The notes beneath the pieces are model-generated. The model was not told where the DNA came from. It did not search any database and was given only the letters and a program-made list of their open reading frames with translations. From positions 62,001 through 126,000 of the forward strand of contig NZ_JAPPRA010000001.1 of the NCBI RefSeq assembly GCF_026672375.1: a stretch of 64,000 nt of DNA, in the 5' to 3' direction. The translations under genes and the position numbers were made by a program. This DNA comes from Caulobacter sp. SL161. GTDB lineage: Bacteria; Pseudomonadota; Alphaproteobacteria; Caulobacterales; Caulobacteraceae. Shown here in pieces: positions 978 through 3,576 of the stretch; positions within the stretch are counted from its first letter, which is position 1; every line of letters starts with the position of its first letter.

Positions 978-990
978 GCCAGCCCCTTAG

Positions 991-1016
991 TTCGCGTGCG
1001 AGGCCACGATGGTTAC
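991..1016 (-). promoter_or_regulatory. SigF-type promoter of sigF-nrsF
   Basis: Read on the minus strand: GTAACC (1016-1011), exactly 16 bases, then CGAA (994-991), 14 nt before the sigF GTG. The same -35/-10 pair and spacing occur upstream of the divergent operon. This implies autoregulation and a very short 5' leader. Confidence 0.85.
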
Positions 1017-1080
1017 ATCGTGTCTTCATCGCCCGAAACGGGCGGCCTGCGCGGCGGTGAAATTTTGTTCGCCGACCGCT

Positions 1081-1106
1081 GTAACCTCGGCCGCCCCAGG
1101 AACGAA
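1081..1106 (+). promoter_or_regulatory. SigF-type promoter of the bufferin operon
   Basis: GTAACC (1081-1086), 16 bases, CGAA (1103-1106), identical to the element in front of sigF. Transcription should start near 1112, about 55 nt before the bufA ATG at 1167. AGGAGAG at about 1154 is the ribosome binding site. Confidence 0.88.
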
Positions 1107-1166
1107 CTCTCCCACGACCGAGCGGCGCAGGGCCGCCTCGGCGCGAACCCACCAGGAGAGTCTCCC

Positions 1167-1448
1167 ATGACCCGCACCGCCACCACCGCCGCCCTGGCCG
1201 CCGCTATCGCTCTTTCGGCCGGCGTCTCCATCGCCGCCGCCGATGAGCACAAGGCCGGCGCCCAGACCGAGAAGTGCTACGGCGTGTCCAAGGCCGGCCA
1301 GAACGACTGCAAGGCCGGCGCCGGCACCTCGTGCGCGGGGACCTCGAAGGTCGACTACCAGGGCGACGCCTGGAAGATGGTCAAGAAGGGCACCTGCGTC
1401 ACGATCAAGACGCCCAAGGGCATGGGCTCGCTGACGCCTAAGGCCTAA
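1167..1448 (+). CDS. bufA1: Bufferin precursor BufA (DUF2282), copper-binding RiPP
   Basis: A 93-residue secreted protein. Residues 1-25 form a signal peptide ([21 protein letters not shown]), so the product is periplasmic. The mature part holds four cysteines at 37, 48, 56 and 77 in the bufferin context ([25 protein letters not shown]). In characterised bufferins the inner two cysteines are converted to thiooxazoles by the adjacent MNIO enzyme, the outer two form a disulfide, and the product chelates copper; that chemistry is known for the family and inferred here. The true start is the ATG at 1167 (AGGAGAG upstream), because a longer in-frame reading would run through the SigF promoter. First gene of a four-gene operon, also called gigA. 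Confidence 0.9.
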
Positions 1449-1527
1449 GCGCCGAACCATCGTTCCCCGTCGCTTCCGGCCGCCCCCAAAAGAGCGGTCG
1501 GGAGCGGCGCGCCTCGAAGATCAGACC

Positions 1528-2370
1528 ATGACCCCTTCCGCCGGCCTTGGCCTCAAATCGCAGCACTATGGCGACGCGATCGCATGCGACGCCGAGGGCC
1601 TCTGGTTCGAGGTTCATCCTGAAAACTACATGTCCGCCGGAGGGCCCCGTCTCGCCGCTCTCGAAGCCGTGCGAGCACGGCGTCCCGTCTCGCTACATGG
1701 CGTGGGGCTCTCTCTGGCGGCCGACACCGACCCGGATCCCGAGCATCTGCAAGCCCTGAAGCGGCTGGTCGATCGCTTCGACCCGTTCGTCGTTTCCGAA
1801 CATCTGGCCTGGTCGACCCATCGCGGGGCGCATCATCCAGACCTCCTGCCCTTCCCCCGCACACGCGCCGCCCTCGACCGCATCTGCGGCAATGTCGCCC
1901 GGATGCAGGACGCCCTGCAGCGCCGCGTACTCATCGAGAACCCCTCGCTCTACCTTCCGCTCAAGGGGCATGCGCTGGACGAGGTCGACTTTCTCGAGGC
2001 CCTGGCGACCCGCACCGGCTGCGGACTGCTCGTGGACGTCAACAACGTCTTCGTCAGCGCCCAAAATCTCGGCTATGCGCCCGAGACCTATCTGGACGCC
2101 CTGCCCGCTCACGCCATCGGTGAGATTCATCTGGCCGGGCACGCGCCGGATCCGGGTGGCTCAAACCTCCTGATCGACACCCACGGCGCGCCGGTCGCGG
2201 AGGTGGTTTGGACGCTGTATGCGCGCCTGATCGCCCGCATCGGGCCACGCCCCACCCTGATCGAGCGTGACGACGACATTCCCGACTTCTCCGCCCTGAT
2301 GGCCGAGCGCAACCGCGCCGTCGCCGTGCTGGCGTCCAGCCAGACCGCTCGCGAGCCCGCGCATGTCTGA
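1528..2370 (+). CDS. bufB1: MNIO (DUF692) bufferin-modifying enzyme BufB
   Basis: A 280-aa TIM-barrel multinuclear non-heme iron-dependent oxidase. Family motifs in order: GLGLKSQHYGD (start), WFEVHPENYM (about 27-36), SLHGVGLSL (about 55-63), VSEHLAW (about 89-95), LIENPSLYL (about 135), GLLVDVNNVFVSAQNLGY (about 166-183), EIHLAGHA (about 200), DTHGAPV and TLIERDDDIP (about 245). The His, Glu, Asp and Asn residues in these motifs are the iron ligands of the family. It should install thiooxazole heterocycles on the central cysteines of the upstream precursor, in the cytoplasm before export. It overlaps bufC by 8 nt (ATGTCTGA), so the partner proteins are made together. Also called gigB. Confidence 0.93.
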   Translation: MTPSAGLGLKSQHYGDAIACDAEGLWFEVHPENYMSAGGPRLAALEAVRARRPVSLHGVGLSLAADTDPDPEHLQALKRLVDRFDPFVVSEHLAWSTHRGAHHPDLLPFPRTRAALDRICGNVARMQDALQRRVLIENPSLYLPLKGHALDEVDFLEALATRTGCGLLVDVNNVFVSAQNLGYAPETYLDALPAHAIGEIHLAGHAPDPGGSNLLIDTHGAPVAEVVWTLYARLIARIGPRPTLIERDDDIPDFSALMAERNRAVAVLASSQTAREPAHV

Positions 2371-3127
2371 GTTGCTGGCCTTCCAGGACGCCTTTGTCGC
2401 CGCGCTCGCAGGCGAGGACGAGCGCCTTTCGCCTTGGTGCGCAGGGCGCGGTGCGCCTCGGGGTCTCGGCGTTTATCGCAACACGATCGCCAAGGGGTGC
2501 GTCGACGCGCTGGCCGAGAACTTCCCGACAGTCCGCGCGCTTGTCGGCGAGGAATGGTTCACCGGCGCCGCGCTGCTGTTCTCCCAGCAATCACCGCCGA
2601 CGCAAGCGGCGCTGCTCGACTATGGCGCGGACTTCCCGTCCTGGCTGGAGCGCTTTCCGCCGGCCGGCGAGCTGCCCTACCTCGCCGGCGTCGCCCATCT
2701 TGATCGCCTGTGGATCGAAGCCCTGTTCGCCGCCGAAGCGCCGCATCTGCAGGCGACGACCCTTTCATCGCTCTCATCGGGCGCCCTGGCGGCGGCGCGT
2801 CTTGATCCACACCCCAGCCTGCGGATGGCGGCTTTCGACGCGGGCTTGCCCGGGCTGTGGCTGGCCGCCCGTGCGGGCGATGAGACGCTTGAGCTGAGCG
2901 AAGCGCCGCAGACCCTGATGCTGATCCGGCGCGCCGGGAGCGTCACAAGCCGTCTCTTGAGCGAGGCCGAAGCCGCGTTTCTGCGCGCAGTTCGACACGG
3001 TGAGCCTCTGGGCGTCGCCGCCGAGCACGCCGCGGAAGCTGATCGTGAAACGCCGATCGCGACCCTTTTCGCCAGCCTGATCGCCGATGGCGTCTTCACC
3101 AACCTGGACCTGGAAACGCACCCATGA
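2363..3127 (+). CDS. bufC1: MNIO partner protein BufC (DUF2063)
   Basis: A 254-aa DUF2063/HvfC-type protein. The N-terminal DUF2063 domain (about residues 5-100) shows [30 protein letters not shown] and [10 protein letters not shown], the usual family start. The second half contains the C-terminal helper domain that contacts precursor and enzyme in related systems. DUF2063 proteins are obligate partners of DUF692 enzymes and recruit the precursor peptide; the role here follows from that and from the 8-nt overlap with bufB. The stop overlaps the start of the DoxX gene (ATGA), so bufB-bufC-bufD form one tightly coupled unit. Confidence 0.9.
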
Positions 3128-3576
3128 CCTCCTCCGTCTCGCCCTGGCGCGCGCCCTTCATCCTGTTGGCGAAGGCGGCGGAAAAGCTCCTGCCCGAAGA
3201 CATTCTGGCGCTCGTCGCGCGCTTGGGTGTCGCGGCGATCTTCTTTCAATCCGGCAGAACCAAGGTGGACGGCTTGCTGCACATCACGGACGGGACGTAC
3301 GCGCTGTTCGAGACGGAGTACGCCTTGCCGTTGATCCCGCCCGATCTGGCCGCTCACGCCGCGACCTATTCCGAGCACCTGTTCTCGATCCTGCTGGTCT
3401 TGGGCCTCTTCACCCGGATGTCCGCCCTGGCCCTTCTGGGCATGACCGCCGTGATCCAGATGTTCGTGTATCCCGACGCCTGGCCGACGCACCTGTCTTG
3501 GGCGGGCCTGATGCTGGTCCTGATCGCGCGGGGCGGCGGCAGGCTGAGCCTGGACCATGTGACGCGAACGCCCTGA
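3124..3576 (+). CDS. bufD1: DoxX family membrane protein of the bufferin operon
   Basis: A 150-aa DoxX protein with four predicted membrane helices: [22 protein letters not shown] (about 28-50), [21 protein letters not shown] (about 78-98), [15 protein letters not shown] (about 103-117), [14 protein letters not shown]. DoxX proteins often accompany redox and thiol-modifying systems. In bufferin operons a DoxX protein is the usual last gene, with an unproven role, perhaps electron transfer to the oxidase or periplasmic thiol oxidation. The ATG overlaps the bufC stop by 4 nt. No further gene follows before a 124-nt gap. Also called gigD. Confidence 0.88.

Follow-up and report, generated by a model that had tools for sequence, protein, structure and literature searches.

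A SigF-NrsF-linked Buf1 bufferin operon in Caulobacter sp. SL161 and the promoter pair shared with its relatives

What does a four-gene operon transcribed away from its own sigma and anti-sigma factor genes make, and what switches it on? The question is raised by a locus at the start of the window, by which we mean the whole stretch of 64,000 nucleotides of Caulobacter sp. SL161 that was analysed. An earlier note, written from the sequence alone, had read it as a SigF-controlled copper-bufferin system. The genes, their domains, the promoters and the conservation of those promoters were observed in this work, and it is highly probable that the locus is a Buf1 bufferin operon of the C. vibrioides type, equipped with its own sigma/anti-sigma pair and working as proposed below.

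Genes of the operon and their families

The operon lies on the plus strand and opens with bufA (1167-1448, +), which encodes a Buf1 (DUF2282) bufferin precursor of 93 amino acids (PF10048, 86.4 bits against a cut-off of 22.4). It is followed by bufB (1528-2370, +) for a 280-residue MNIO (DUF692) bufferin maturase (PF05114, MbnB_TglH_ChrH, 326 bits against 25), bufC (2363-3127, +) for a DUF2063 partner of 254 residues (PF09836, 79.5 bits against 27.2), and doxX (3124-3576, +) for a DoxX-family membrane protein of 150 residues (PF07681, 67 bits against 23.6). A gap of 79 nt separates bufA from bufB; bufB and bufC overlap by 8 nt, and bufC and doxX by 4 nt. On the opposite strand, sigF (438-977, -) encodes an ECF sigma factor of 179 residues with Sigma70_r2 and Sigma70_r4 domains. 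The gene for the SigF anti-sigma factor, nrsF (1..451, -), is partial in the window; its GTG start at 451 overlaps the sigF stop, and when read from the genome beyond the window edge its product is 214 amino acids long and carries Cys102, Cys131 and Cys181. Both the four-gene content, with every Pfam family above its curated cut-off, and the divergent arrangement with sigF-nrsF are as the earlier note had described them. Further downstream lie a gene which we take to be bacterioferritin-like (5895-6425, -) and another (6527-6712, -) which we presume to be bacterioferritin-associated-ferredoxin-like, a neighbour also found downstream in C. crescentus. By gene count from CCNA_03366, the latter fits CCNA_03372 (PMC8224329).

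The precursor has its four cysteines exactly where they had been claimed, at positions 37, 48, 56 and 77 of the bufA translation, and these are conserved in 78, 79, 79 and 79, respectively, of 79 BufA sequences, a set that takes in the window's own. Thus, the DUF2282 precursor and the four conserved cysteines of a Buf1 bufferin are both present. By eye, the BufA N-terminus has a basic start, a hydrophobic stretch and an Ala-rich end ahead of the DUF2282 part, the outline of a candidate Sec-type signal peptide. BufB scores 354.8 against the NCBIfam model MNIO_BufB (NF050167), above the curated cut-off of 310, which places it among BufB-type MNIOs, and BufC has the domain and size (about 250-260 residues) of a PME-type 1 partner. 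In sequence searches of solved structures, BufB matched PDB chains 3bww and 8hci as well as MbnB; BufC gave no match at 1e-3 and BufA none at 0.1. Two other memberships were tried and rejected. The 6/12-Cys BufA2 bufferins require six or more cysteines where BufA has only four, and their model NF050166 reached 26.4 against a cut-off of 60. The oxazolin precursors (HvfA) carry an EGKCG repeat that is absent from BufA, and the HvfB model reached 221.8 against 360; among the operon proteins, the NCBIfam models HvfC and HvfX likewise stayed below their cut-offs (24.9 against 142 and 50.9 against 80). The low scores for BufA2, HvfC and HvfX count against the main reading.

BufB/MNIO relatives were also seen on 356 plasmid records, including those of Escherichia (73), Klebsiella (18) and Salmonella (8); 350 of the 356 fall below 60% identity to the BufB studied here.

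The published Caulobacter counterpart

On sequence grounds, the locus is the orthologue of the divergent nrsF-sigF and CC3254-CC3257 genes of C. crescentus (vibrioides). There, nrsF-sigF (CC3252-CC3253) and CC3254-CC3257 (CCNA_03273, CCNA_03362-03366), the bufferin 1 operon, have the same gene order and a DUF2282 precursor, and the six proteins encoded here have the lengths published for CC3252-CC3257 (214/179/93/280/254/150). The promoter consensus GTAACC-N16-CGAA is likewise common to both. The published NrsF is described as a protein of 214 residues with six transmembrane segments, in which Cys131 and Cys181 were mutated (PMC3511200), and NrsF of SL161 keeps both of these cysteines. With C. 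vibrioides DSM 9893, DNA identity reaches 97.4% over 7368 bp, and the SigF proteins are 99% identical. This places the window in C. vibrioides or a very close sister of it. The locus is, accordingly, already characterised, a fact that the earlier note had missed, and there is nothing new in the operon itself. Re-deriving a characterised bufferin operon and its regulator from raw sequence serves as a check of the reading rather than as a discovery.

The SL161 genome holds a single gene each for an MNIO and a DUF2282 protein, and therefore no counterpart of CC2907-CC2905, the second SigF-controlled operon of C. crescentus (PMC3511200). Since the published C. crescentus has two SigF-controlled operons, a strain that has just one bufferin operon offers a cleaner background for loss-of-function work. 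Across the genus, an MNIO match was found in 43 of 75 genomes. A further candidate, genome G005, was considered as the two-operon C. vibrioides and rejected, its longer matching DNA pieces being about 76-79% identical to the window; the 11 kb around its second MNIO operon held no SigF-type motif.

A promoter pair conserved among relatives

Between sigF and bufA, the motif GTAACC-N16-CGAA stands ahead of both transcription units: one match, at 1016-991 (-), is the candidate SigF-type promoter of sigF-nrsF, and the other, at 1081-1106 (+), that of bufABC-doxX, where it agrees with the published consensus. Allowing spacers of 15 to 18 nt, the window holds no match besides these two, against 0.12 expected, and a count of two was reached in one of 100 shuffles. 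The published 5'RACE start lies at -61 from the start codon, and the motif here ends at that very distance ahead of bufA; an equal leader length would place the published start on the last base of CGAA, a small mismatch that counts against the reading.

The two sites could be coincidental and the operon driven by some other factor, an idea that draws on the genome-wide count: GTAACC-N15-17-CGAA occurs five times in the SL161 genome, less often than a reversed control pattern (15 matches), so the motif sequence alone would not prove function. Against this stands position. Of the best 80 of 495 confirmed BufB relatives, taken from genome contigs, L056 and L080 were dropped for having less than 450 nt of upstream sequence, and the other 78 loci were scored for GTAACC-N16-CGWA, that is, CGAA or CGTA, in the 1200 nt ahead of the BufB match. 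A forward site was present in 63 of the 78, a reverse site in 55 and both in 50; shuffling led to expectations of 0.0 and 0.05 for the forward and reverse sites, and the counts for three scrambled motifs ran from 0 to 2. The 80 loci together span 785 kb, and only nine strict sites lie outside these positions; four of the nine go with sigF genes that are displaced (L039, L054 and, as a divergent pair, L048). In addition, reporter activity of the orthologous promoter in lacZ fusions depends on the -35 element and on sigF (PMC3511200). A coincidence is thus extremely improbable, and the predicted promoter function is backed by conservation across relatives and not by a sequence match alone. The earlier claim of matched sites in both directions holds, with conservation far beyond chance.

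The conservation has its exceptions. Fifteen relatives lack a strict forward site, of which nine carry a near-variant (GTAACG, GTAACT, or a spacer of 15 or 17 nt); in the remaining six of the 78 (L045, L050, L065, L069, L072 and L083), no forward site was found even in looser form, and three of these have sigF-nrsF next door, a point in favour of coincidence. In L065, L069 and L072, sigF-nrsF lies downstream of doxX on the same strand, not divergent, and bufA has no motif upstream; these loci are an exception to the promoter rule and count against a strict one. To see how far the anti-sigma factor accompanies the motif, nrsF was searched genome-wide for ten loci without a divergent sigF; L016, L035, L056 and L080, where no sigF was seen but contigs are short, were left out. 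A match above cut-off was obtained for seven of seven motif-bearing loci (L039, L042, L049, L053, L054, L062 and L074) and for none of the three motif-less ones (L045, L050 and L083), the first two of which come from possibly incomplete metagenome bins and the third of which has a single weak and broken match that falls short of the cut-off. Once L065, L069 and L072 are counted in, nrsF accompanies seven of seven motif-bearing and three of six motif-less loci of this type.

Beyond this locus, GTAACC-N16-CGTA stands 31 nt ahead of the msrP start codon in the SL161 genome. This gene, for a periplasmic methionine sulfoxide reductase, is a published SigF target (PMC3511200, PMC8224329), and since its site ends in CGTA, the CGAA-only pattern of the earlier note would miss it. 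A third exact GTAACC-N16-CGAA in the genome (L006; G000:C1:2302192-2302217, -) lies between genes for an ABC-transporter ATPase and a PilZ-domain protein. It was weighed as a promoter of the PilZ-domain gene and rejected: it lies on the opposite strand and faces the other way, antisense into the 3' end of the ATPase gene, so it is probably a chance match. Two further sites have 17-nt spacers (L005 and L007).

Some relatives show variations of their own. In L026, a second tightly spaced divergent GTAACC-N16-CGAA pair lies away from the buf promoter, some 2980-3006 nt ahead of the BufB match. L028 and L031 each have two BufA matches; in L028, tandem DUF2282-type precursors precede one MNIO, with a SigF-type site upstream of the first.

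Metal response, chemistry and related systems

For the orthologous operon, regulation has been described in some detail. CC3254-CC3257 is SigF-dependent, as established in 2012 by a 5'RACE start, the consensus GTAACC-N16-CGAA and a sigF mutant, with NrsF as a negative regulator; the sigF promoter itself depends on SigF, but not exclusively (PMC3511200). Copper was later found to induce the SigF regulon in all conditions tested (PMC8224329, 2021). As to chemistry, Cys-derived thiooxazoles of C. vibrioides Buf1 are reported to chelate Cu(I) and Cu(II), and Buf1 clusters include genes for a sigma factor and NrsF (PMC12452194, 2025); the thiooxazoles of bufferin 1 were assigned as 5-thiooxazoles (PMC13097082, 2026). 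The match to copper bufferins proposed by the earlier note is thus already in the literature for the C. vibrioides operon (PMC3511200, PMC8224329, PMC12452194, PMC13097082). The precise modification pattern, which that note had left for confirmation, has been assigned for Buf1: the central cysteines are the targets and the outer ones form a disulfide (PMC12452194). The SigF-controlled Buf1 reading agrees with the gene content, the cysteine pattern, the MNIO_BufB score, the neighbouring sigF-nrsF genes and the pair of promoters.

Transferred to SL161, these reports suggest the following course. SigF would be held at the membrane by NrsF until metal stress (copper, and according to the literature also chromium and cadmium) frees it; freed SigF would then transcribe bufABC-doxX, and at least partly sigF-nrsF, from the matched promoters. 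BufB, helped by BufC, would convert Cys48 and Cys56 of BufA to thiooxazoles, with a disulfide between Cys37 and Cys77, and mature BufA would be exported via Sec to chelate surplus copper in the periplasm. DoxX has a putative role, probably in supporting the response at the level of periplasmic redox or the envelope. We infer SigF dependence, copper induction, thiooxazole formation and copper binding in SL161 from what is reported for the orthologous operon.

A different function has also been considered, in which the main signal for the operon is a metal other than copper or a thiol stress (gold, chromate, cadmium, sulfur or oxidative), BufC is a DNA-binding regulator and DoxX a quinol-linked redox enzyme, and no copper-sequestering RiPP is made. 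Dichromate and cadmium do induce the operon through SigF in C. crescentus; in the available text of the same report, however, the sigF, CC2906 and CC3255 mutants were no more sensitive to Cr or Cd (PMC3511200), whereas a sigF::Tn5 mutant is copper sensitive (PMC8224329). DUF2063 was first described as DNA-binding (PMC3511200), yet NGO1945, though once predicted to be a transcription factor, is treated as a typical MNIO partner (PMC12452194). The alternative also draws on the membership of msrP in the SigF regulon (PMC3511200, PMC8224329), in the naming of the homologous gig operon for gold and in the quinol-linked copper oxidation proposed for GigT and GigP (PMC10304878). Against all of these stands the copper chelation through thiooxazoles reported for C. 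vibrioides Buf1 (PMC12452194), and this alternative appears improbable.

The copper-sequestering Buf1 reading can be set beside two known systems. The oxazolin/fontiphorin clusters (HvfABC, with EGKCG-repeat captophorins) resemble it in pairing an MNIO with a DUF2063 partner, in a Cys-derived copper ligand and in the frequency of DoxX-type genes (PMC12452194, PMC13097082). They differ in the precursor, which here is a DUF2282 protein with four spaced cysteines and without the EGKCG repeat, and in the HvfB, HvfC and HvfX models, which the operon proteins do not reach.

The wider family adds a component of its own. In five of the 80 relatives (L046, L048, L060, L070 and L075), a gene between sigF and bufA encodes a cysteine-free protein of 92-120 residues that has FPSAA-type repeats and opens with a signal-peptide-like stretch, and each such gene has its own GTAACC-N16-CGAA 61-65 nt ahead of the first Met. 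In L048, over 1 kb of additional sequence comes between this gene and bufA. Neither Pfam nor NCBIfam gave a match to the L046 protein at 0.1; it had 40 matches in the protein database, one identical to the query, and those that were named are called hypothetical.

The second known system is gigPABT (gold-induced genes) of Cupriavidus metallidurans CH34, an operon of four genes that is homologous to the one here and is transcribed away from rpoQ-rsqA, the genes for an ECF sigma factor and its anti-sigma factor. Its BufB is 58% identical to the one described here, and as in SL161 an exact GTAACC-N16-CGAA stands on both sides (L105, +2533 for gigP and -2498 for the divergent sigma-factor gene); one more site, with an N17 spacer, lies inside the CH34 MNIO gene. 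In the available text of the 2023 study, no gig promoter was identified, and the rpoQ-rsqA region was RpoD-dependent; there was no evidence of RpoQ-driven gig expression, because deletion of rpoQ raised it in metal-treated cells, and RpoQ control was still called an assumption that can be made (PMC10304878). Together, the RpoD dependence and the deletion result count against a simple positive role of RpoQ. It may nevertheless be that the SigF/NrsF promoter code is a wide wiring of Buf1 operons in alpha-, beta- and gammaproteobacteria, which would predict direct control of gig by RpoQ, and that the FPSAA-repeat proteins are a new cysteine-free secreted family in the bufferin regulon of Burkholderiales-like betaproteobacteria. 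To this broader reading we give an even chance and no better, because the rpoQ region is RpoD-dependent and three relatives have sigF-nrsF without the motif. The CH34 promoter pair between gigP and rpoQ, matching that of SL161, is a direct candidate for the missing gig promoter.
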